From NCBI GenBank assembly GCA_015200345.1, contig CP054187.1, forward strand, positions 310,001-374,000: a DNA stretch of 64,000 nt, given 5' to 3'. Under the pieces are notes generated by a model. It did no database searches. It saw only the letters and a list, made by a program, of their open reading frames with translations, and was not told where the DNA came from. Positions 1 through 15,940 of the stretch are shown here, piece after piece (the first letter of the stretch is position 1; every line of letters begins with the position of its first letter). Origin of the DNA: Planctomycetia bacterium. Its GTDB lineage: Bacteria > Planctomycetota > Phycisphaerae > UBA1845 > UTPLA1. The translations under genes and the position numbers were made by a program.

Positions 1-40
1 TGGACGGTTTTGAGTGATAACTGACAGTTACGAGTCCTCG

Positions 41-682
41 TCAAATCCCCGAGTCGATCGCGTTCGCCCGGGGATGGCCCCACATCGGTAGTCCGCTTTC
101 CAGCTCAACGCCGAGCGCATCGGCGACGCGATTGATGTAATTGAAGTATGCGATGACCTGTACGGCGTCGTGAATCGCAGCGTCGGACCAGCCGGCGGTC
201 CGGAGGCGGTGCACATCGTTTTGGCAGCAGCTTGCAGGAACGCGTGTAATTTTTTCCGCGTATTCAAGGATCACGCGTACTTTGTCGGAGACCGGACATC
301 CCCGCCAATCGCTGACCGCCTGATGAACGAAAGCATCACAGCCGGCGGGTGGAATCGGCCCGGCAGTGCCTGCTTCAACCAACCCGGCCGAATCTTTTTC
401 GACCTCAACACGGAGGTCGTTGGCGTGCGCCTGCACTCAGTAATGGCACCCGTTCGTTTTGCTCACGACGACCGCCAGCAGTTCGCGCAGGGCGCGAGGC
501 AATTCCGACGGGCCGAACATCACCGCCTGATATAGGCCTATGCCGGACTTCAGGACCGGCGCATTAAGGCTCTGTGCGCGCACGATGTTGAAGACCCGGC
601 CTGCGCGGCGATGCGCCGCATCGTAAAGCTGCTTTAAAGGTCCGTTTGCATCTTCATCGCCAATCGTTCTGATCCATGCCAT
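41..682 (-). CDS. AhpD-like peroxidase-related protein, probable selenoprotein (UGA read as Sec82)
   Basis: This is an alkylhydroperoxidase/carboxymuconolactone-decarboxylase-fold protein of the peroxidase-related type found with arsenosugar genes. As seen, codons 1-81 run to a TGA at 437-439 and the same frame continues without a gap for 131 codons (GTG next) to a TGA at 41. The full product would be 213 residues, normal for the family. The AhpD motif is intact only if the UGA is a residue: Glu67, Cys79, residue 82, His86 match E-x11-C-x2-C-x3-H, and residue 82 falls on the peroxidatic Cys of AhpD. The local peptide is NGCHY-U-VQAHA. The start ATG (680-682) has AGGAG eight bases upstream. 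A hairpin lies 17 nt after the UGA (separate entry). It is the last gene of the arsenic operon, 38 bases after the glycosyltransferase. The alternative is a nonsense mutation in an otherwise intact gene. Confidence 0.85.
400..419 (-). promoter_or_regulatory. Candidate bacterial SECIS hairpin in the selenoprotein mRNA
   Basis: On the minus strand a perfect 7-bp stem (CGACCTC paired with GAGGTCG) closes a 6-nt loop CGTGTT. The stem begins 17 nt after the UGA, so the loop starts 24 nt after it. Known bacterial SECIS elements have an apical loop of about 3-14 nt with a G in its first two positions, roughly 16-37 nt after the UGA. This hairpin fits all three, and its loop contains the GU pair of bases that SelB contacts in the E. 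coli fdhF element. It is the only strong hairpin seen in that stretch. Confidence 0.75.
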
Positions 683-2859: not shown

Positions 2860-4371
2860 CTAAATTCCTCCTGCGAGAACCGGCGATGCCTCACTTTGTC
2901 GTTTGAGCTTCCTTGTCTCTATAAGAAACCAGGCCAGTATTGGAAGATGTTCGACCCACACGATCCACGGGAAGTCGTAATGAAAATAATACAGTGGAAG
3001 CAAGGCCGTATAGGTCAGCAGAGACAGCCGCGGCGCGGCGGCAAGCAGAGGGAGCATCCACAAGTAATACCACGGGAATTGAGTCGGGCTGAGCATGAAT
3101 ACCGCTGCGATGATCAGGAGCGATCGACGAACAAGTTCCGTCACATTAGGGACGAGCCGACGGGTCTGCTGGATAATACAGCCAGCTAGAAGACCCGACA
3201 CAATCAGCCGCGCCATGGGAGGAGCGAATCCGGGGTTCAATTTGAAAGCCACCAGTCCCCGTTGCGTAAGCCACTCGATTGCCCGGAACACCGCGTCATT
3301 GTTGTACCATGTGGAAGCGTAGGCGAGAAAGCCGCTTGATCCGGCCAGCATTCCCATGACAACTGGTAGCCACAGTACTGTCGACGCCACCACGAATATA
3401 GCCAGAAACCGAACGACCTCACTCAAACGGCGTGCTGCCATTCGAATCAACAGCGGAATAAGCACAATCGGCCAGACTTTGGCGCCTACCGCCAGTGCGA
3501 GGATAAGGCTGGCCAACATGGTCGATCGTCGAACCGCAAGCAGCAACGCGATTAGTACAAACGGGAGCACGATCACATCCATGTGCGCGCTGTGGCTCAC
3601 TTCACGCAGCAGAAGCGGATTCCACCAATACCATGCGATACCGTGAAGCGGACGATTCATTGAGCGGAGAAGCACGATCAGCAACAACACCGTCGCCGAG
3701 TCGAACAGCAGCAAGACCGCGCGCAAAGCGGCCAGACTCCACGGCTTGATCCAGTAGGCAATCGCAAATACCGCCTGTGCCGTGGCGGGATAAATCGTGG
3801 ACAGATCCGGATGGTTGATGCTCTGCATGTTTTGCCCGGAAGTGCGTGCAAGTTCGACCAGATGTGGCGGCACATCACGCGAGTTTGCCGGGTCCGCGAG
3901 CGCCGACAGCATGGATTGCGGCGTATGAATCCAGGGATTCGTACCGGTAGCCGTCACCGCGCCATCCCAGAGGTATCGATAAAAGTCAGAGACGAAGATC
4001 GGCGCCGCAGGAATAAGAATGATCCGGGCAGCCAATCCGACCGTGATTATGATTGCCAAATCAGTGGACCGAGCCGGTCGAACACGAGCCCAACACAATC
4101 CAGTCAGAAAGAGGACACCAGCGATAACTGAAGCGGCCACGAGAAGCCATCGAGTTGTCTCGATGACGATTGCCCCATCGTTTCGGTACTTGCTGACGAG
4201 CGCCAGCGTCGCTGAATACGCGAGTATCGTGAATCCAGCGGCGTAGAGCCCGAGGCTGCCGCGAGGCCACTTGTCGATAGCGGAGCCGTATGCGTCAGAA
4301 ACACATGCCTGTAGAAGAGCACCCTGACGCGTCTGAGCGCTACTCCTGCTTCGTTGCATCTCTTCTTGCAT
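2860..4371 (-). CDS. Multi-pass membrane glycosyltransferase (GT87/DUF2029-like)
   Basis: This 503-residue integral membrane protein has about ten hydrophobic segments. A conserved acidic loop after the first segments contains SDFYRYLWDGAV, in the style of lipid-phosphate-sugar-dependent GT-C mannosyltransferases. Later motifs such as WNPLLLREVSHSAHMD and a membrane-embedded SPTQFPWYYLW stretch near the C-terminus also fit the DUF2029/GT87 type. It would take sugar from a polyprenyl-phosphate donor, which the N-terminal DPM-like domain of the next gene could supply. The start ATG lies 25 bases after the flavoprotein gene, and its stop abuts the TTG of the triple transferase. The acceptor is unknown. 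Confidence 0.75.
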   Translation of the reverse strand: MQEEMQRSRSSAQTRQGALLQACVSDAYGSAIDKWPRGSLGLYAAGFTILAYSATLALVSKYRNDGAIVIETTRWLLVAASVIAGVLFLTGLCWARVRPARSTDLAIIITVGLAARIILIPAAPIFVSDFYRYLWDGAVTATGTNPWIHTPQSMLSALADPANSRDVPPHLVELARTSGQNMQSINHPDLSTIYPATAQAVFAIAYWIKPWSLAALRAVLLLFDSATVLLLIVLLRSMNRPLHGIAWYWWNPLLLREVSHSAHMDVIVLPFVLIALLLAVRRSTMLASLILALAVGAKVWPIVLIPLLIRMAARRLSEVVRFLAIFVVASTVLWLPVVMGMLAGSSGFLAYASTWYNNDAVFRAIEWLTQRGLVAFKLNPGFAPPMARLIVSGLLAGCIIQQTRRLVPNVTELVRRSLLIIAAVFMLSPTQFPWYYLWMLPLLAAAPRLSLLTYTALLPLYYFHYDFPWIVWVEHLPILAWFLIETRKLKRQSEASPVLAGGI

Positions 4372-4396: not shown

Positions 4397-5986
4397 TCAA
4401 CGTCGCCATCGGAGAAGCATATTGAACAACTTTCGGACGAACGGCGTCAGGCGCGTACGGTTGTACGCATCCCCGGCCCTGCGGATGACCTCCGCTTGCG
4501 TGGGATACGGATGAATGGTGCGCGCAATCGTCCCCAGCCCCTTGCCGGCCACCATCGCTAGCGTGATTTCGCTGATCATCTCGCCGGCGTGCCGGGCCAC
4601 CAGTGTCGCGCCGAGAATCTTGTCGGTTCCGCGCTTAAGGTGCACCTTTAGAAACCCGTCCGTTTCGCCGTCTAAGATGGCCCGATCCACGTCAGCCATT
4701 TCGATGGTGATTGTGTGGACGGGGATTCCTTTTTCCTTTGCTTCGTGCTCGTACATTCCGACGTGGGCGATCTCCGGATCGGTGTAGGTGCACCAGGGGA
4801 TTGTCAAGGCGCTGGATTTAGCGCGGCCGAAGAAGAGGGAATTCTGAATGACGATCCGGGCCATGAAGTCGGCCGCATGGGTGAATTTGAAGCGGGAACA
4901 GACGTCGCCGGCGGCGAAGATGCGCGGATTCGTCGTCCGCAGGCGGTCATCGACCTTCACACCGTCCCGTTTTTCGTAATCGACACCTGCCGCTTCCAGG
5001 CCCATTCCCTCCACGTTCGGTGCGCGCCCGACGCCGAGAAGAATGGCATCGGACCGGACTTCGTCGGCCTCTTGCAATTCGATCACCTTTTCGCCGTCAT
5101 GACGAACGGACTGGATATTGGCGGAACAGCGAATATCAACGCCGTCACGCATTAGGGCCGCTTCGATCCTCCTTGCCGCATCGGGATCCTCGCGGCCGAG
5201 GATGTGCGGACCCGCCTCCAGCAGAGTGACCTTGGAACCGAAACGGGCGAAAGTCTGCGCCATTTCGCAGCCGATCGGCCCCGCTCCGATGATGGCAAGT
5301 CGCGGCGGCAACTGGGTCAACGAAAAGAGCGACTCATTGGTGAGATATCCGGCTTCCGCAAGTCCGGGGATCGGCAGCGCGGCGGCTCGCGCTCCCGTCG
5401 CGATACAGGCTCGGGCGAATCGAAGCGACTTTCCCGCGACTTCAACCGTTTGCGCGCCCGTAAATCGCGCTGCACCCATGAAGACGTCGATGCCCAAGTC
5501 TTGAAATCGTCGCGCCGAATCATGCGGGCTGATTCCGGCACGCAGTCGTCGCATCCGTTCCATCACTGCTGAAAAATCAATCAGCGCGTCATTCGCAACC
5601 TGAACCCCGAATAGACGGGCGTCGCGCACATCCGCGATCGCCCGTGCGCAGCGAATCAAGGCCTTGGAAGGGACGCAGCCGACATTCAGACAGTCGCCGC
5701 CCATGAGGTCGCGTTCAATCAGTGCGACCTTTGCGCCGAGACCCGCCGCGCCGGCCGCGGTCACGAGTCCGGCCGTTCCGGCGCCGATGACAACGAGGTT
5801 GTAGCGTCCGCTCGGAGTTGGATTGACCCAGTCCGTGGGATGGACATTCTCCACCAGTCGGCGGTTGTGATCGTCCGAAGGGGAAGTCTGTGGAAGTCGT
5901 TCGATAACGGCGCTTCCCTTCTCTTCACTCGCCATGGCGCTTTCACGTGTAGACCCGGTTGTAGCGGGTTTTCGTGTTGTGATCAT
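4397..5986 (-). CDS. MerA-like pyridine nucleotide-disulfide oxidoreductase
   Basis: This 529-residue flavoprotein belongs to the dihydrolipoamide dehydrogenase/mercuric reductase class. The FAD site is VVIGAGTAGLVTAAGAAGLG. The redox-active disulfide is in GGDCLNVGCVPSKAL. The NAD(P)H site is IIGAGPIGCEMAQTFARFG, and the C-terminal dimerisation domain has the His-Glu pair HPYPTQAE. It lacks the N-terminal HMA domain and the C-terminal vicinal Cys pair of true MerA, so it is probably not a mercuric reductase. Some 40 residues precede the FAD domain and show no signal peptide. It sits 15 bases after the TVP38-DUF547 gene; MerA-like and TVP38 proteins are often paired or fused in cyanobacteria. 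It may feed electrons to thiol or arsenical redox steps of this operon (inference). Confidence 0.85.
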   Translation of the reverse strand: MITTRKPATTGSTRESAMASEEKGSAVIERLPQTSPSDDHNRRLVENVHPTDWVNPTPSGRYNLVVIGAGTAGLVTAAGAAGLGAKVALIERDLMGGDCLNVGCVPSKALIRCARAIADVRDARLFGVQVANDALIDFSAVMERMRRLRAGISPHDSARRFQDLGIDVFMGAARFTGAQTVEVAGKSLRFARACIATGARAAALPIPGLAEAGYLTNESLFSLTQLPPRLAIIGAGPIGCEMAQTFARFGSKVTLLEAGPHILGREDPDAARRIEAALMRDGVDIRCSANIQSVRHDGEKVIELQEADEVRSDAILLGVGRAPNVEGMGLEAAGVDYEKRDGVKVDDRLRTTNPRIFAAGDVCSRFKFTHAADFMARIVIQNSLFFGRAKSSALTIPWCTYTDPEIAHVGMYEHEAKEKGIPVHTITIEMADVDRAILDGETDGFLKVHLKRGTDKILGATLVARHAGEMISEITLAMVAGKGLGTIARTIHPYPTQAEVIRRAGDAYNRTRLTPFVRKLFNMLLRWRR

Positions 5987-6001: not shown

Positions 6002-7699
6002 CTATCGTTCCTGCCGATTCTGAACGCTGTTCAGTCGCCAGTCGTAGTCCAGCCACTCGCTACGAACCGTCTTGCCGTTGTTGACCGCGGCCTGAAGTGT
6101 CTCCGCGTAGGACGCGGCAAACTTGAGCACACTGCCCGACACCTGTTCAAAATCTCCTCCATACCACTTGTACAGCGGAGTCAGATAGGCAATCCTTGCA
6201 TCCGAGTCGAATCGAAACCACGTTCCGTACGAGTGAATGTAGCGCGTCTGATCCTCAAGCTGCTGCCCGATGCGATTGCCGACGTATGCTTCGTTTCGGA
6301 GCGGAGGACAGCCCACCGCCGCGCACACCAACGCAAAATGAATCCGCGGTTCCTTGAATTTCGGTCGGATCTGCTCCTGCTCAATCTGGTTCAAGCTCCA
6401 GTTGTTTCCGGCCAGATTCCAGCGTCGATCGTTCCAGCGTTTTGAGGCAGGGATGTCCTTGATCGACTTGAGTTTCCCGCCGTCGAAGTGATCGAGAATC
6501 AGGCGGAGCGTGCAGGCGTTGTAGGCATTGATCAACAGCGCGAGTTTCTCATCGCGGCCCAATCTGTCGAATGGTGCGCTCTTCAACGAAGCCAGATAGG
6601 AATCCAGTGCCTTCGCGTCATGGCCCAGGCCCTCGTAGTCCACCCATCCTCCATCGGACACATGTTTATTGAGCAGAGCGTCGAATTGTGAATGGTCAAA
6701 GGCGATGCCTTCGGATTTCTGTTCGTACGCTTCCTGAAGCGTGACACTGGACGGTCCGAACAGACCCCGTATCGCATCTTGCTGCGTGCATGCCGCGATC
6801 GTTATCGCCAACATTGCGATTGCCGCGAGCGGCAAGATGAACGGCCGCATTCCACGCGACATCGTCATCGGCTGCGCAGTCATCTGCGTGTTTGAATCCG
6901 CACCACGCACCGGTTCGAGGGCGCCCTGTTCGGCAAGCGCGCGCCGCGCCAGCCGAGTCACATACACGGTCACAACGATGGTCGCAGCCAGTCCGGCGAT
7001 CAACAGCACGGTCTTGCCGACTCCGACGGCGTCTTTGCCCCCGCCCGCCGCTTGCAATCCTTGCGCGCCGATATGGCCGACGTATACATACATAAACGTG
7101 CCTGGCAGCATGCAGATCCAGCTCGCCAGCACATAGGGCCAGAAGCGGATCGAAGTCAGGCCATAGAGATAGTTCCCCAGGCTGTAGGGAACCGCCGGCG
7201 AGAGTCGGAGCAAGGCCACAATCCTCCAGCCACCTTTCCCGATGGCATGATCGATGGCGGCGAAGCGGCGATTTCGCTGCGCCGCTCGCTCAATGGTTGT
7301 GCGAGCGAAGTAACGCGCGATGAGGAATGCCAGCGCCGCGTTGATCGTCGATGCGATTGAGACGATTGCCGTCCCCCAAAGCAGGCCGAACAACGCGCCG
7401 GAAGCGATAGTCAGGGCGGACCCGGGCACGAACAGCAGCCCCGCAAGCACGTAGGCACCCGCGAAGATCAGCGGACTGAACGCGCCCAGGCGATCGACGC
7501 CGCCTTGAAGCGCCTGCACCGCACGATCAACGGGAAGGACGCGAACCAGAATCAGCAAACACGCGACCAGCGAGACAACCGACAGTACGTTCAACCAACG
7601 CACCCAGCTTCGGCCCGAGTGCGGTGTGTTTTCATTCACTGCAACAGCCGGGACTCCCTTTGCGCCACCGGTCACACTTGATGCCTTCGACAATTGCAT
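6002..7699 (-). CDS. TVP38/TMEM64 (VTT) membrane domain fused to DUF547
   Basis: Residues about 35-245 form a polytopic DedA/TVP38-type VTT domain (GSALTIASGALFGLLWG, LRLSPAVPYSLGNYLYGLTS). Residues about 285-305 form a further hydrophobic segment, and residues about 325-560 form a DUF547 domain (WVDYEGL, LLINAYNACTLRLIL, AANNW-like SLNQIE, HFALVCAAVGCPPLRNEAY). Both families occur separately in selenodomain/arsenosugar neighbourhoods; one polypeptide joins them here. The ATG at 7697-7699 has GGAG eight bases upstream. DUF547 may be a thiol-type hydrolase or transferase, because Cys and His of FALVCAAVGCP are conserved in the family, but its reaction is unknown. The topology suggests the DUF547 part lies outside the cytoplasmic membrane. 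Confidence 0.85.
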   Translation of the reverse strand: MQLSKASSVTGGAKGVPAVAVNENTPHSGRSWVRWLNVLSVVSLVACLLILVRVLPVDRAVQALQGGVDRLGAFSPLIFAGAYVLAGLLFVPGSALTIASGALFGLLWGTAIVSIASTINAALAFLIARYFARTTIERAAQRNRRFAAIDHAIGKGGWRIVALLRLSPAVPYSLGNYLYGLTSIRFWPYVLASWICMLPGTFMYVYVGHIGAQGLQAAGGGKDAVGVGKTVLLIAGLAATIVVTVYVTRLARRALAEQGALEPVRGADSNTQMTAQPMTMSRGMRPFILPLAAIAMLAITIAACTQQDAIRGLFGPSSVTLQEAYEQKSEGIAFDHSQFDALLNKHVSDGGWVDYEGLGHDAKALDSYLASLKSAPFDRLGRDEKLALLINAYNACTLRLILDHFDGGKLKSIKDIPASKRWNDRRWNLAGNNWSLNQIEQEQIRPKFKEPRIHFALVCAAVGCPPLRNEAYVGNRIGQQLEDQTRYIHSYGTWFRFDSDARIAYLTPLYKWYGGDFEQVSGSVLKFAASYAETLQAAVNNGKTVRSEWLDYDWRLNSVQNRQER

Positions 7700-7754: not shown

Positions 7755-9335
7755 TCAGCGCTTCAGCGAACGCACCGCCGCAATCACTTCGTCGGGGTCG
7801 GCGCGCTTCGTGTAATCCCAGTCGGCGAACGCGTAGCGAATGACGCCGTCCTTGTCGATGACGAACGTTGCCGGGGCGGGGAGTTCCCACGTCCCGCTTA
7901 CGTTGGACTCGGCGACCTTCATGCCGAACTTCTCGTACTTCGCCTTCGTGGCCTCATCAACAACGAAGTAGACCTTGAACGCCTTGGCAGCCGCGAAGGT
8001 GCCGTCGCTGAAGACCGCGTAATCGCCGCCGGCCATCTCGCGCGTCCTGACGGCGAGGTTGGGCTTCTCCGGCGTGAGCGCGACAAATGTACCGTCAGCG
8101 GCCTTGAGTGCGTCCAACTTGCCTGCCCACGCCGATAGGGCGCGGTTGCAAATCGGACACCATCCGCCGCGGTAGAACGTAAGAACGATCGGGCCGTCCT
8201 TGTAGAACGATGCCAGTTGAACGGTCTTACCGTCCACCGCGGTAACCGCGACATCCGGGGCTCGCGCACCGACGGCAAGTCCCGGTGACGTGGAGTCGCC
8301 GTCCGCGCCCAGTTTGACGACGGTTGTGTCTGGGTAGAACGCGGACCAGGAGTAGTAGAACGTCTGCGCCGACCGCACTCCCTTCGGAGCCTCGATCACG
8401 GCGATGCCGGCTTCGCTCCGCGCGAGACGCACCTTGCCCGCCGGCGTGTCGATCGTCCGGCCGTCACCGATGGCGCTCGTCGGCACGAACCAGGCCTGCG
8501 ACGCATCTCCGTCGCCCACCGCAATACCCACGCCGAGAGTCTTGCGCGGCAGCGCATCGCCGACGCGCGCAACAGGGACCATCAGCGTTTCGTTCTTGAA
8601 GTACCGCTCATACGGTGAGCGCGAATAGTCGCGCTGGTGACCGGTCTTGCTGCTGACGATCTTGGCGCCCGGATGGGCCTTCTTGAACGCGGCGAACGAA
8701 ACCACCTCGACCGGCAGCATGTCCAGCGCCGTCCCGGCCAGCGGACCGCTGACGGCGCGCATGCCGAGCTGGCTCCAGAGGCCCTTGTCCTTGCGGTCGT
8801 ACATCAGGACGTTTGAATTGTAGAGCGCCCCCGACACGCCAAATTCGAGCACGGTCGCCGCGCCGCCGGCGCCGACCTTTCGCGAGAAGACCGTCGCGGA
8901 ATCGCACAGCGGACAGTAGGTCACGGCAACCGGCTTTCCCCCTACGGTCGTGTTCACGACTTCATGCCAGTCGAGCACGCGCAGTGGAACGCCGAGTACG
9001 TCTTCGCCAACGACCACCTCGATCACGCGGGCGTCGTCCGGAAGCCAATCGGCCTTGTCGGCGGGCTCCATCCCGGGGTCAGTCAGCGCCGGGATCGCGT
9101 CGCGCGGCAGGAGCGTGTGAATCTGATCCTTCGGAATCGTCAACCCCGTTAGGTCGTATTCCTTCTCGATGTCCACTGATCCATTCCGCCGCACCTGCTC
9201 GAACTTGCTCCCGTCCGCCGGACGCAAACCCGCTGCGGGCCGCGAGGTTGACGCGGCGCGCGAGCTCTGTGCGGACGCGCTATCGCAGATTGCCATGACC
9301 ACTATCATCAACGGAACAATCAATTTTCGTTTCAT
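7755..9335 (-). CDS. Secreted DUF3179 domain - AhpC/TSA redoxin fusion
   Basis: The start chosen is the ATG at 9333-9335. It has GAAGGAG upstream and begins a signal peptide (MKRKLIVPLMIVV...SASA), giving 526 residues. Residues about 80-320 match DUF3179 (LPRDAIPALTDPGM, YCPLCDSATVFSRK, FGVSGALYNSNVLMYDR, SSKTGHQRDYSRSPY). Residues about 355-520 are a peroxiredoxin/redoxin domain with GGWCPICN, a CxxC placed where AhpC2-type redoxins have their peroxidatic Cys. The combination points to an exported thiol-redox protein. Its neighbours are arsS upstream (32 bases) and the TVP38-DUF547 gene downstream. It may handle oxidised sulfur, selenium or arsenic species in the periplasm (inference). Confidence 0.85.
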   Translation of the reverse strand: MKRKLIVPLMIVVMAICDSASAQSSRAASTSRPAAGLRPADGSKFEQVRRNGSVDIEKEYDLTGLTIPKDQIHTLLPRDAIPALTDPGMEPADKADWLPDDARVIEVVVGEDVLGVPLRVLDWHEVVNTTVGGKPVAVTYCPLCDSATVFSRKVGAGGAATVLEFGVSGALYNSNVLMYDRKDKGLWSQLGMRAVSGPLAGTALDMLPVEVVSFAAFKKAHPGAKIVSSKTGHQRDYSRSPYERYFKNETLMVPVARVGDALPRKTLGVGIAVGDGDASQAWFVPTSAIGDGRTIDTPAGKVRLARSEAGIAVIEAPKGVRSAQTFYYSWSAFYPDTTVVKLGADGDSTSPGLAVGARAPDVAVTAVDGKTVQLASFYKDGPIVLTFYRGGWCPICNRALSAWAGKLDALKAADGTFVALTPEKPNLAVRTREMAGGDYAVFSDGTFAAAKAFKVYFVVDEATKAKYEKFGMKVAESNVSGTWELPAPATFVIDKDGVIRYAFADWDYTKRADPDEVIAAVRSLKR

Positions 9336-9367
9336 GCTTCGATCTCCTTCAAGAAATAATGAGGCGC

Positions 9368-10366
9368 TCAAACGCCCGCGAGCGCTCCGCCGCACGACGA
9401 CCCGCATCCAGCCGTGCAGCCGAAGCAATGTCCGCCCGTAACGATGGTCCGATTTTGAAGCCTCGTGGGATCGAAGTCGCGAACATGCCGCGGAAGTCCG
9501 TCCGCCGTCGCCAAGCCGAGTGCGTAGTTGAAATCGCAATCATGCAGGGTGCCGTCCCAACTCACGTGTACCTGGTGACGGCACATGAGTGGTTCGAGTG
9601 TCTGCGGATTGAAGCGTTCTTGCAGCAGTCGCTCGTATTCATCGGCGCGACCGTCGCGCTGGAGGTCGTGCAGGAATCGCCCGATCGGCATGTTGGTGAT
9701 TGTGTAAAGCTTCGTAAACTTGATTCCGAACCGCTGTTCGAGCTCGTGCCGGTACTCCGACTCCAACTTGGCTTGTTCCGGCGGAAGCGACGGGCCCAAC
9801 GGGTTGTAGACGAGATCAAGCCGCAAGCGGGCGTCGATGCCATAACCGACCGCGTTCAGGGCCTGAATCGATTCGACGCTCTTTTCGTAAACCCGCGCTC
9901 CGCGCTGCCGATTCACGCTGTCTGGAAGATAACACGGAAGCGATGCGATCAGGTGTACGCCGGTTGCCCGGAAAAACTCCGGAAGGTCGCGATATCCTTC
10001 GTCGAGCATGATCGTCAGATCGGTTCGCACGATCACGTCGAACCCCTCCGACCGCGCCAATTCCACGAAGCTCCGAAAATGAGGGTTCATTGCCGGTTCA
10101 CCACCGGTGATATCAATGGTTTGCGCCCCGCTGAGTCGAGCGGCATTTATGACCAGGCGCATCGTGGCCCAGTCCATCTGTTCCGTTCGCTTTGGAGATG
10201 CTTCAACATGGCAATGCCGACACGCGAGATTGCAGACCAGGCCCACGTTGACCTGAATGGTGCTGATCGCTGCCGCGCGCAAGGGAGCGCCAGTTGCCTT
10301 GACTACGCGGTGGTCAAAGCTTCTTTCGCTGACGATGGTCAGCGGGATAGTCTGCTGCGTGATCAT
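9368..10366 (-). CDS. arsS: ArsS-type radical SAM protein with selenodomain-like C-terminus (Cys form)
   Basis: This 332-residue radical SAM enzyme has the cluster motif CNLACRHC near residue 46 and GGEPAMNPHF for SAM binding. It ends in a DUF3641-type C-terminal half finishing CFGCTAGCGSSCGG. That tail is the hallmark of the ArsS/rSAM-selenodomain family (TIGR04167), in which one of these Cys positions is selenocysteine in some members; here all are Cys codons. In cyanobacteria ArsS acts after ArsM to attach a SAM-derived nucleoside to dimethylarsenite on the way to arsenosugars. The ATG directly follows the TAA of the aquaporin gene, so translation is probably coupled. The residue count is normal for the family. 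Confidence 0.88.
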   Translation of the reverse strand: MITQQTIPLTIVSERSFDHRVVKATGAPLRAAAISTIQVNVGLVCNLACRHCHVEASPKRTEQMDWATMRLVINAARLSGAQTIDITGGEPAMNPHFRSFVELARSEGFDVIVRTDLTIMLDEGYRDLPEFFRATGVHLIASLPCYLPDSVNRQRGARVYEKSVESIQALNAVGYGIDARLRLDLVYNPLGPSLPPEQAKLESEYRHELEQRFGIKFTKLYTITNMPIGRFLHDLQRDGRADEYERLLQERFNPQTLEPLMCRHQVHVSWDGTLHDCDFNYALGLATADGLPRHVRDFDPTRLQNRTIVTGGHCFGCTAGCGSSCGGALAGV

Positions 10367-11384: not shown

Positions 11385-12443
11385 TCAGCAGCAGCCTCCT
11401 GCGATGGACGCAGATCCTGCCGCGCCCGATTCGGCCGGGCCGCATGGAAATAGTCCGAAATGGTGAGATCGATCCCCCTGCACGCGAAAGTGTGCGGAAA
11501 AACGGGTCTCGGCGAGCATCGCCGCGGTGTTCCCGCAAACCAGCATGGGCTTGCCGGTGATAAACTCGTGATGATCATCCAGCACAAACGAGTGCGGACA
11601 ATGCGCGATCGTTCCAAGATAGGTCGCGACCTGACCGAAGTCTTCACACTTGTCCTCCAGCGACGCAATCTTGAACGCTCGAATGGTCATGGACTCAAAC
11701 CGCGCCATTCCGATCTTTGCTTGAACGTCTTCATTGTCGATAGCGACCGGCCGTCGGGCGACCACGCGATAATCGGGAACGCCCATCGAAAGGAGCAGGC
11801 GGCGAAAATCTTCGACGTACATCGCGCCCGCCAGGCACTCGCCCAGCAGGACCTGATCTTCACGCCAATCCTTCGAGAGCCTTCGGTCCGCAAAGATATC
11901 CGAGAAAAACAACTCGCCGCCCGGCTTGAGCACTCGAAAAATCTCGGAGAAAACGCGTTCCTTGTCGGGAGATAAATTCAAGACACAATTTGAAATCACA
12001 ACGTCTACGGATTCATCCTCGATGCCGACATCTTGAAGCGATTCCATGTATCCCTGAACAAACCGTGTGTTCGGTGTGGCAAAGCCGAAGGCGGCGGCCT
12101 GTGACTCCTCGTTCGCTTGAGCCACGCTCAACTGTTCAGCAGTCATGTCAAGGCCGATGACCCTTCCGCGCGGGCCAACGAGTTTGGCGCAGATGAACGC
12201 ATCGCGACCGGTGCCGCAGCCGAGATCAAGTACCGTGTGGCCCTCAATCGCCGGTGGAATGGGCGAGCCGCAGCCGTAGAATCGCTCGACGATCTCGGGA
12301 GCAAGTTGCCCGACAATCGCCTTGATGTGCGCCGGCAGGCCGTCTGCGGAACAGCAAGCATCCGTCTTCAAGCATGTGGTATTGCGAAGAATGCGCCCAT
12401 AGTATTCGCGAACCGATGAATGCAACGGAGTTGACGCGATCAT
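11385..12443 (-). CDS. arsM: Arsenite methyltransferase
   Basis: This 352-residue SAM-dependent methyltransferase carries the ArsM signatures. There is an N-terminal Cys pair (DACCSADG), the SAM loop VLDLGCGTGRDAF, the As-binding Cys in VISNCVLNL, and a further Cys in LLGECLAGAMY. These are the cysteines that hold As(III) in characterised ArsM proteins. The product would be mono-, di- and possibly trimethyl arsenic. The start ATG overlaps the stop of the upstream sigma-remnant frame (ATGA at 12440-12443). It is the first intact gene of the arsenic operon. The C-terminal 70 residues after the methyltransferase core are the usual ArsM domain. Confidence 0.93.
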   Translation of the reverse strand: MIASTPLHSSVREYYGRILRNTTCLKTDACCSADGLPAHIKAIVGQLAPEIVERFYGCGSPIPPAIEGHTVLDLGCGTGRDAFICAKLVGPRGRVIGLDMTAEQLSVAQANEESQAAAFGFATPNTRFVQGYMESLQDVGIEDESVDVVISNCVLNLSPDKERVFSEIFRVLKPGGELFFSDIFADRRLSKDWREDQVLLGECLAGAMYVEDFRRLLLSMGVPDYRVVARRPVAIDNEDVQAKIGMARFESMTIRAFKIASLEDKCEDFGQVATYLGTIAHCPHSFVLDDHHEFITGKPMLVCGNTAAMLAETRFSAHFRVQGDRSHHFGLFPCGPAESGAAGSASIAGGCC

Positions 12444-12907: not shown

Positions 12908-13801
12908 CTATTCGCGGGCATAGCGATCGGGGCGTGCGAGGAATCGATCCCGTGTCTTACCATCCGGAAACAGGTATCTCTTCCCGTGATAATCCGCTGC
13001 GAACTTTTCGCTGCCAGGCACATCCTTTTTCATCTCGACCTTGCACACGACGCACTTGCCGCCCAGTGCGACGTCTGCCCATTTGTACTTGTGCGGATCG
13101 GCGTTGAACATGTCGAGTTGTTTCTGGGAGGGAAAGAGAAAGAGCCTGTCGTCATGCACGGCGAAAAACTCCGCCTTGCCCGGCACGGCCTTCTTCATCT
13201 CGACCTTGCACACGACGCAGTTGCCGCCGAGCGCCGGCGTGAAGGCGGCCGGGCTCTTTTCGAACATCGCCTTTTGCTCGGCACTCGGAAACAGGTAGCG
13301 CAGCCCGTCATGCACGACCGCGTACTTCGGATCGCCCTTGACGACCTTGTTCATCTTCACCAGGCAAACCGGACAGTTGCCGCCCAGCGCCAGGTCGGCG
13401 TCGGCGTATTTGGCCGGGTTCTTCTTGAACATGTCGAGCTGCTCCTGTGCCGGGAAGAGGAACAGCCGCCCGTCGTGCACCAGCGCGTGCTCGGGCTTGC
13501 CGGCGACGCGCTTGCCCATCTCAACCAGGCACACCACGCAGTCGCCGCCGAGCGCCGGCACAAACTTAGCCGGGTCGGCATCGAACATCTTCTTTTGCTC
13601 GTCAGACGGGAATCGGTAAGTCTTACCGTCGTAGTCAGATGTAAACGCCGCCTTCCCGTCGACGAGCTTGTTCATCTTGGCCAGGCACACCGTGCACTTG
13701 CCATCCAGCGCCAGCGGCAACTCCGCGGCGCTAGCCGTCGCCCATGCTCCCAAGCCCAGCGCCCACGCAGCCATCATGATCCGAACAGACCGCAGTTTCA
13801 T
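12908..13801 (-). CDS. Secreted protein of five tandem YHS-like metal-binding modules
   Basis: A signal peptide (residues 1-25, ending ATASA) precedes five repeats of about 53 residues. Each reads C-x2-C-[LK]-x-[KE]-M-x-K-x-V-x-G, then a D-G-[KR] turn, [FY]-x-FP and x2-MF-x3-P-x-[KA]-[FY]. The CxxC pairs sit at residues 36, 88, 143, 195 and 250, so the spacing alternates 52, 55, 52, 55. That implies the protein grew by copying a two-module unit. YHS domains bind metals and are common in mercury and copper loci. The ATG has TAGGAG upstream. It lies between the arsenic operon and the mer genes, on the same strand, and probably sequesters soft metals in the periplasm (inference). Confidence 0.85.
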   Translation of the reverse strand: MKLRSVRIMMAAWALGLGAWATASAAELPLALDGKCTVCLAKMNKLVDGKAAFTSDYDGKTYRFPSDEQKKMFDADPAKFVPALGGDCVVCLVEMGKRVAGKPEHALVHDGRLFLFPAQEQLDMFKKNPAKYADADLALGGNCPVCLVKMNKVVKGDPKYAVVHDGLRYLFPSAEQKAMFEKSPAAFTPALGGNCVVCKVEMKKAVPGKAEFFAVHDDRLFLFPSQKQLDMFNADPHKYKWADVALGGKCVVCKVEMKKDVPGSEKFAADYHGKRYLFPDGKTRDRFLARPDRYARE

Positions 13802-13984: not shown

Positions 13985-15169
13985 TCAAGGCTTCATGTGT
14001 TCGGGGTCCAAGAAGTGTCCGGTGTAGTCTCCCGCCTTGCGGATCGCTTTCAGGATCACTTGAGGGGGAATGCGATTCGTACTGGGCACCCCGATTACCG
14101 CCTGACCTTTTTCGTAGCTCACCTCCGCCGCGGCCACGCCGGGGATCATGCGAAGCGATGCCGCGATGCCCGCAGCGCACGCCTCGCACGTCATGCCATC
14201 GATTTGCACCACAATCTTTTCGAGATCGTTGCGTGCTGCGAAGCTGTCATTACCTCTTAGGAGGTAGCCCACGTAATTGGGGAATAACGCGAAAGCCAGG
14301 ACAAAGATCGTTACGACCCAGAGCACGGGCTTGTTGAGTTTGTGAAACGCGAAACCTTTGATATTGTGAGGCGGGCAGCAGGCTTCCGGGCAGGATTCCG
14401 TTTCCGGCGTCGCGCAACAGTTCGTTTCGCATCCAGCGGAAGCAACACGGGGCGCGTGGTAGGCGAAGTAGAAGGCGAGTCCGAGCAGCGCGAGCGTCAC
14501 CGGCAGGAGCACGGGTCGCCACGCCTCGAACGTGCTCGCGAGCGCCCCGCCGGAAACTCCCAGGGCGATCAGGAGCAGCGGCAACCAGCAACAAGCGGAC
14601 GCGGCGATGGCCGACGCGAGCGCGCCGAACTGCACCACGGTTCCGGTGTCCATCCGGGACTTGCGGCCCTGGGGAGTTGTTGCGCCGTACTTGGCCTGGG
14701 CATTCTTCAACGCCTGGCGCACATTGCTCAGACAACAGGCGCCTTGCGGATTCGTCTCCTCGCATCGGTCAAGGCCCTGCCGGCATTTTTCAGTGATCTC
14801 GTCAGGAATGCGGGAAGTCCCCGTATGGGCGACCTCGCTTTCGACCTCCTCGATGGTATGCCCAAAGCAATAGCAGACCGGGCGCGGCGACCCTGTCTCC
14901 TTCTGCCCGATGCGAACCCTCACATCAGAGCGTAAGAATCGCTCGCCGGTGTCCGGTTGGAAATAGGCTACATCGCATGACGGCGTAGAGCAGAACCGGA
15001 ACCCGTCGGTGCGGCGCGCACGGGTCCGTGCCGCTTCGGATACGAGCGACTCAATCGTGACCGGCTTCACCGCCCGGCCTTTTCTGCCGCAGGACGGACA
15101 CAACAGGCTTGTTTCCATGCCCGTGTTGACATGCGTGGCCACGTCGCCGGTCACGCTATTTCCCGCCAC
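13985..15169 (-). CDS. merT: CopZ-like Fe-S domain - MerT - HMA fusion, mercuric transport
   Basis: This 394-residue protein has three parts. Residues about 18-160 are a CopZ/BFD-type N-terminus with zinc (LLCPSCGRKG) and [2Fe-2S] cysteines (VCYCFGHT, EKCRQGLDRCEETNPQGACC). Residues about 175-305 are a MerT-type membrane part with the vicinal pair in ASACCWLP and a Cys-rich loop (CETNCC, CPEACC). Residues about 320-390 are an HMA metallochaperone domain with GMTCEACAAG. Mercuric or other soft-metal ions would pass from the membrane Cys pair to the HMA domain. The reading frame overlaps the upstream Cys-rich gene by 14 bases, so both are one transcript from the MerR-type promoter. Confidence 0.85.
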   Translation of the reverse strand: MAGNSVTGDVATHVNTGMETSLLCPSCGRKGRAVKPVTIESLVSEAARTRARRTDGFRFCSTPSCDVAYFQPDTGERFLRSDVRVRIGQKETGSPRPVCYCFGHTIEEVESEVAHTGTSRIPDEITEKCRQGLDRCEETNPQGACCLSNVRQALKNAQAKYGATTPQGRKSRMDTGTVVQFGALASAIAASACCWLPLLLIALGVSGGALASTFEAWRPVLLPVTLALLGLAFYFAYHAPRVASAGCETNCCATPETESCPEACCPPHNIKGFAFHKLNKPVLWVVTIFVLAFALFPNYVGYLLRGNDSFAARNDLEKIVVQIDGMTCEACAAGIAASLRMIPGVAAAEVSYEKGQAVIGVPSTNRIPPQVILKAIRKAGDYTGHFLDPEHMKP

Positions 15170-15473: not shown

Positions 15474-15905
15474 TCAGATTTTATTGCAGCGCCCGGAATT
15501 CACGGCCGCCAGCCCCTCTAACACAGCGCATTTGCCGGTTCGTTCCGTCCGGCGGCACGCCGCGAGCCATCGACGCAGCATCCCTGCGACCCCCTGAAGC
15601 TGCTCGACCTGCTCGGCCACACGCGCCGCCCTGATCTTGATCAGGTCTTGCACTTCCCGGCAGGGATCAACATCGCCGTCGCGGAATCGCAGCAGCACCG
15701 TGATGTCCGACAGCGTGAAGCCGGCGGCCTGGGCGGAGCGGACGAACCGCAGGCGTGCCAGGGCTTCATCGCCATACAGCCGGTAGTTGCCGTGGCTGCG
15801 AGTCTCTGGCCGGAGCAACCCGCGCCGCTCGTAGTAGCGGACGGTCGAGGTCGGAACGCCCGCCGCCTTTGCCAGCCCGCCGATGGTGTACTGTGCCGCG
15901 CTCAT
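15474..15905 (-). CDS. merR: MerR-family regulator, Hg(II)-type cysteines
   Basis: The protein has 143 residues from the ATG at 15903-15905. An N-terminal MerR helix-turn-helix (YTIGGLAKAAGVPTSTVRYY, ERRGLL) is followed by the dimer helix and three cysteines. The first is in DPCREV; the other two are nine residues apart in AACRRTERTGKCAVL. MerR proteins that sense Hg(II) use Cys82, Cys117 and Cys126, with the same nine-residue gap. The frame is open seven codons further, but that earlier ATG would lie inside the spacer of the candidate merR promoter, so the internal start is preferred. It controls the promoter just downstream. Confidence 0.88.
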   Translation of the reverse strand: MSAAQYTIGGLAKAAGVPTSTVRYYERRGLLRPETRSHGNYRLYGDEALARLRFVRSAQAAGFTLSDITVLLRFRDGDVDPCREVQDLIKIRAARVAEQVEQLQGVAGMLRRWLAACRRTERTGKCAVLEGLAAVNSGRCNKI

Positions 15906-15912
15906 ACTGTCA

Positions 15913-15940
15913 TATATAGCGGCCATGCACTTGGGTTCAA
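15913..15940 (-). promoter_or_regulatory. Candidate merR promoter, possibly leaderless
   Basis: On the minus strand TTGAAC (15935-15940), a 16-bp spacer and TATATA (15913-15918) form a sigma-70-like promoter. The chosen merR ATG lies only seven bases after the -10, so the transcript would start at or next to the start codon. No Shine-Dalgarno sequence is visible before the ATG. Confidence 0.5.

Follow-up and report, generated by a model that had tools for sequence, protein, structure and literature searches.

A predicted AhpD-like selenoprotein of the TIGR01926 family in an arsenosugar operon of a planctomycete-type genome

The first AhpD-like selenoproteins, 27 sequences, were described in 2005 in data of the Sargasso Sea (PMC1088965), and the AhpD-like 1 and 2 selenoproteins were found to be abundant in GOS (PMC2398784). 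AhpD-like TIGR01926 proteins with a CxxU motif are listed in a 2026 review as a high-confidence predicted selenoprotein family (PMC13188914). The gene analyzed here, located in a window of 64,000 nucleotides (the whole stretch of DNA under study), is by its sequence a further predicted member of this known family, and the family itself is not new. The NCBIfam family, the CxxU motif and the kind of SECIS element are common to this gene and to the members already described (PMC1088965, PMC13188914). By contrast, the 2005 report dealt with a marine metagenome (PMC1088965), whereas the present gene belongs to a complete planctomycete-type genome and lies in an arsenosugar operon.

The TIGR01926 gene and the selenocysteine machinery

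The gene occupies positions 41-682 of the minus strand and forms a frame of 213 codons, from the ATG at 682-680 to the terminal TGA at 43-41, whose sole internal break is a TGA at codon 82 (439-437). In the sequence-only reading, two adjacent same-frame ORFs had been taken for one gene, and indeed only this TGA separates the ORF at 437-682 (81 aa) from the one at 41-436. The UGA stands in place of the second cysteine of the AhpD CxxC, and the active-site motif becomes E67-x11-C79-x2-U82-x3-H86, in which Cys79 (446-448, minus strand) would be the partner cysteine of the CxxU site and His86 is encoded at 425-427 (minus strand). Glu67, Cys79 and His86 were located where that reading had placed them, with the spacing of AhpD, and E67, C79, Y81, U82 and H86 were invariant in 25 aligned members. 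The second cysteine of the CxxC corresponds to C133 in Mycobacterium tuberculosis AhpD, which we take to be the peroxidatic cysteine of that enzyme. The gene had also been called hidden, which is true as far as default ORF callers are concerned; the family, TIGR01926 with CxxU, is already a listed selenoprotein family.

The read-through protein matched TIGR01926 (peroxidase-related enzyme) with 123.5 bits (cut-off 81.8) and Pfam CMD with 45.2 bits (cut-off 23). The matches cover both sides of the TGA, the best TIGR01926 stretch comprising residues 117-193 and the PDB relatives residues 8-192. The structure predicted by AlphaFold2 from 25 homologues, with Cys in place of Sec (mean pLDDT 90.2, pTM 0.87), is an all-helical AhpD fold, like that of the solved AhpD-like proteins. 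Its top PDB match was 6k40, the D. radiodurans (Deinococcus) AhpD (E 7e-11, TM 0.76/0.86), with further peroxidase-related proteins also among the best matches, and debrominase Bmp8 (6ohi), M. tuberculosis AhpD and sestrin 2 were found among the lower ones. The Cys-type TIGR01926 structures (6k40, 2pfx, 3c1l, 2oyo) share the fold (TM up to 0.76/0.87) and the active-site spacing with the window protein, but they carry CxxC instead of CxxU and are only 20-34% identical to it in structural alignments. Two other distant AhpD-related groups with CxxU, the (seleno)proteins NF041238 (AhpD_rel_CFYUT) and NF041047 (GSU3128), do not include the window protein, which scored 60 bits against a cut-off of 175 and 12.5 against 110, respectively.

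In the sequence-only reading, the absence of selA/selB/selC from a complete genome was named as a finding that would speak against Sec. These genes, and selD as well, were all found above curated cut-offs in this genome, which consists of one contig of 3,877,392 bases. The tRNA-Sec (selC) was detected with 73.7 bits (gathering score 47) and the anticodon tca in ARAGORN, SelB with 303.6 bits (cut-off 242), SelA with 517.5 bits (cut-off 268), its gene being located directly after selB, and SelD with 374.2 bits (cut-off 125) and one in-frame TGA inside the match. Judging from this TGA, the SelD of this genome (L055, G000:C1:3620511-3621431) would itself appear to be a selenoprotein, a situation already described for other bacteria. 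Whether selA and the Sec gene occur together was also analyzed in 101 genomes, with no significant association (45/4 vs 44/8, Fisher p = 0.36); given that almost all genomes of the order carry selA, this comparison is uninformative. Four genomes with a Sec-AhpD gene lacked a selA match, and selB was above its cut-off in two of them; therefore, these gaps look like assembly gaps.

Two further Sec-type AhpD paralogues were found in the same genome (G000:C1:3015106-3015635 and 1201789-1202133), and no Cys-type CMD protein was detected there by a Pfam search at E <= 0.001, all of the CMD matches being of the Sec type. Another AhpD-like paralogue (L023, G000:C1:1185333-1185593; L143:9616-11777) is truncated by an IS21-like element, with IstB/IstA-like ORFs directly downstream. 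The bases that follow the stop codon of the Sec gene in the window (1-40, TGTCAGTTATCACTCAAAACCGTCCA) are similar to the terminus of the IS element found at this truncated copy, and the last residues of the Sec-AhpD protein may have been altered by an insertion. A DDE/integrase-type transposase ORF (L010:18510-19445) was also observed about 600 bases past the end of the Sec gene.

Conservation of the UGA codon and the downstream hairpin

The sequence-only reading had raised the question of whether homologues carry Cys or Sec at residue 82. The read-through protein was compared by tblastn with all of the loci gathered by two independent searches, one of 100 related genomes and one of a public collection with one genome per species. 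The aligned codon was TGA in 114 of 114 homologous loci and the Cys form was found in none; the loci comprise 103 distinct 57-nt UGA contexts, and some genes were met through both searches. The TGA-bearing loci span Planctomycetota, Acidobacteria, Chloroflexi/Anaerolineae, Gemmatimonadetes, Actinomarina and others. In the distant paralogues from relatives (20-31% identity), TGC or TGT was present at the aligned codon in all 20 cases.

Coding selection was evaluated on both sides of the TGA in close pairs of homologues. With the homologue at L059, dN/dS was 0.116/2.456 before the TGA and 0.292/0.83 after it, and with the one at L060 the values were 0.097/1.317 and 0.387/1.301, dS being near saturation in both pairs. 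Since dN is lower than dS on both sides in these close pairs, the sequence comparison indicates that coding selection persists past the TGA.

The 7-bp hairpin with a CGUGUU loop that had been described 17 nt downstream of the UGA was found as such at 400-419 of the minus strand (CGACCUC-CGUGUU-GAGGUCG); the apical loop begins 24 nt past the UGA and has G and U as its second and third bases. The published limits for bSECIS elements are a stem of 4-16 bp, a loop of 3-9 nt with G in its first two positions, and a distance of 16-37 nt between the UGA and the loop (PMC13188914), and the hairpin lies within all of them (a 7-bp stem and a 6-nt loop that has its G at position 2 and lies 24 nt from the UGA).

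The pairing of this stem was conserved among the homologues. In 44 distinct sequences, 93.2% of the stem cells were paired, vs 27-49% (at most 49.4%) when the 3' side was slid by 1-3 columns, and 17 stem cells with double changes were counted vs a mean of 4.9 after shuffling, a number that was matched in 0 of 500 shuffles. The clearest covariation concerns a synonymous D codon and the codon facing it, GAC occurring with GTC in 44 sequences and GAT with ATC in 17. Moreover, an uninterrupted helix of at least 6 pairs was found in 68 of the 103 Sec sequences, vs 1 of the 20 Cys paralogues. Two inner pairs of the stem are invariant, and the stem overlaps the coding constraint on D-L-R-x-E-V. RNAalifold by itself kept 4 of the 7 stem pairs, and in the 61-nt single-sequence fold, which was not unusual (z = -0.15) and speaks neither for nor against the element, the hairpin was masked by a longer alternative stem. 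Among the other TGAs of the window, 14 of 983 on the minus strand and 4 of 852 on the plus strand also passed a loose filter that required a stem of 7 or more Watson-Crick bp, a G as one of the first two bases of the loop and a loop 16-37 nt away.

The sequence-only reading had held that a TGA at this codon together with a matching hairpin was unlikely to arise by chance. This was upheld by the conservation data: a chance origin is ruled out because the TGA is conserved in 114/114 loci and the hairpin covaries. The hairpin by itself, however, is weak evidence, and hairpins of similar quality are not rare near TGAs in the window. Additionally, a codon-usage scan of the window for other TGA-interrupted genes gave no credible further selenoprotein, in a scan so insensitive that the Sec gene was itself unflagged at the threshold.

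The arsenosugar operon

The Sec-AhpD gene ends an arsenosugar operon in this genome, and the upstream genes lie on the same (minus) strand. Directly before it, a glycosyltransferase fusion of TIGR04282 and TIGR04283, both of arsenosugar biosynthesis, is encoded at 721-2859 (207.3 bits, cut-off 134, and 285.3 bits, cut-off 182). It is preceded by a membrane protein with no family match, possibly a mannosyltransferase (2860-4371), and by a Lpd/MerA-like FAD pyridine-nucleotide disulphide oxidoreductase (4397-5986; NF004991, 831 bits), a possible electron donor. Further upstream, domain matches identified a protein with VTT and DUF547 domains (6002-7699) and one with DUF3179 and an AhpC/TSA-type domain (7755-9539 as the ORF is listed, the true start being probably downstream of 9539). 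The arsenosugar radical SAM protein ArsS, in the Cys form, follows at 9368-10366 (TIGR04167, 412.3 bits, cut-off 300), and an ArsM-like arsenite methyltransferase at 11385-12443 (PRK11873, 190 bits, below the curated cut-off of 263), with an aquaporin-like channel between the two.

The order FAD protein, membrane protein, glycosyltransferase and Sec-AhpD recurs in two genomes from other families of the order, at L059 (genome G068) and L060 (genome G081), where Sec-AhpD is likewise the last gene of an arsenosugar operon, ArsS is located on the same contig and the AhpD proteins are 70% and 67% identical to the window protein, respectively. At a fourth locus, L110, ArsS, ArsM and related genes were found near Sec-AhpD in a rearranged order. 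A linkage with arsenic genes throughout the family was considered and rejected, as it was seen only at L026/L059, L028/L060 and the rearranged L110 when 112 loci were searched. No arsenic-gene neighbours were seen at the remaining Sec-AhpD loci, many of which have short flanks only. The operon had been described beforehand as of a type already linked to selenium; the genes themselves (ArsM, ArsS of TIGR04167, TIGR04282 and TIGR04283) do lie upstream, but the arsenosugar link was seen in three genomes only and is therefore not a property of the family.

Among the families of arsenosugar genes, TIGR04169 (arsenosugar biosynthesis-associated peroxidase-like) belongs to the same CMD/AhpD superfamily as the window protein and adjoins ArsS in related genomes. 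It is, however, about half as long, and the window protein, with 12.5 bits against a cut-off of 120, is not a member of it. TIGR04169 had no match at E <= 0.001 in the genome of the window and was above its cut-off in none of the three operon-linked genomes (this one, G068/L059 and G081/L060, each of a different family), whereas it lies beside ArsS in 13 of the 14 relatives that have it above the cut-off. The absence from the linked genomes and the usual pairing with ArsS make it possible that one AhpD-type protein replaced another. Against this, many other ArsS genomes have neither TIGR04169 nor a Sec-TIGR01926 AhpD. From these gene contents, a doubtful but conceivable scenario is that, in a few planctomycete-type genomes, the Sec TIGR01926 AhpD replaced TIGR04169 and selenium chemistry would serve arsenosugar synthesis or shield it from oxidants. 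No description of a Sec TIGR01926 AhpD in an arsenosugar operon was found in the open-access literature searched. This location is a modest surprise in an otherwise real but ordinary find.

Further genes were observed elsewhere in the window. A minus-strand gene at 12908-13801 encodes several YHS-type repeats and matched the YHS domain-containing (seleno)protein family in the Cys form (153.5 bits, cut-off 70). Another, at 13985-15169 (minus strand), encodes a protein in which a CopZ N-terminal Fe-S domain is fused with a MerT-like transporter and a heavy-metal-associated domain, and is adjoined by a gene for a MerR-type regulator (15474-15926).

Decoding of the UGA and proposed function

The best explanation for these data, to which a probability of about 0.96 is assigned, is an AhpD-like oxidoreductase in which the UGA of codon 82 is decoded as Sec. 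The main claim of the sequence-only reading, that the gene encodes a selenoprotein, was supported by all of the suggested checks that were run: the sel genes are present, homologues have Sec or Cys at residue 82, and the hairpin agrees with the model of bacterial SECIS elements. A pseudogene, in which translation would end at a TGA created by a nonsense mutation while the rest of the gene decays, might be suspected from the two ORFs obtained by standard ORF calling and from the sister copy at G000:C1:1185333, which is truly broken by the IS21-like element. Nevertheless, the TGA is kept in the 114 homologous loci from Planctomycetota, Acidobacteria, Chloroflexi and Actinomarina, which already refutes this reading, and the codons downstream of it are under purifying selection; with dN lower than dS on both sides, a nonsense mutation therefore fails as an explanation and its likelihood is negligible. 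A reading of the UGA as another amino acid, either Trp as in genetic code 4 or by general read-through, is compatible with a frame that stays open in every code in which TGA is a sense codon. It is extremely improbable, given that the full Sec machinery is present, that distant paralogues carry Cys at the aligned position, and that many genes of the window, Sec-AhpD included, terminate in TGA.

The decoding of the UGA as Sec is thus strongly supported by the sequence comparisons, and the protein would be a two-domain-length AhpD-like oxidoreductase whose UGA 82 is read by SelB and tRNA-Sec via the downstream SECIS. What the selenocysteine does can be proposed by analogy. Most likely, the selenolate of Sec82, activated by a proton relay of E67 and H86, would attack a peroxide or another oxidized substrate; from AhpD homology, Cys79 would then resolve Sec82 by forming a selenenylsulphide, to be reduced by a dithiol or flavoprotein donor. 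The gene neighbours suggest the Lpd/MerA-like flavoprotein (4397-5986) and the AhpC/TSA-domain protein (7755-9539) as natural donor and partner, a pair that recalls, in gene neighbourhood, the Lpd-AhpD-AhpC chain of mycobacteria.

In the sequence-only reading, the protein had been termed an AhpD-like peroxidase with a peroxidatic Sec; the AhpD-like site and family were corroborated, while the peroxidase part comes from homology. The nearest relatives of known structure carry the annotation alkyl hydroperoxide reductase or peroxidase-related, the E/C/C/H site of AhpD is complete and most of the family members are located away from arsenic genes, all of which favor a peroxidase over a Sec protein with other chemistry. 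Such a protein could be a reductase, a dehalogenase-like enzyme or a CxxU protein that handles metalloids, with an arsenic or thiol intermediate as its substrate. It shares its fold with debrominase Bmp8 (6ohi), AhpD-fold proteins perform other chemistry too, the gene is located in an arsenosugar operon, and selenoproteins that fuse ArsM with AhpD have been recorded (NF041537, PMC13188914); this alternative is credible, although its chances are judged to be clearly below even. We infer a putative peroxidase activity from the homology and, from the operon, a possible role in arsenic chemistry, in which Sec-AhpD would tentatively supply the peroxidase-like function among the arsenosugar genes.

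Ordinary annotation would split or shorten this gene, and likewise every close homologue found. The evidence for Sec, backed by covariation, is firm and extends to an entire clade within TIGR01926, which retains Sec without a Cys member in any of the 114 loci. The location in an arsenosugar operon suggests that selenium redox chemistry may be linked to arsenic metabolism, a connection open to testing in these bacteria, most of which are known through metagenomes.
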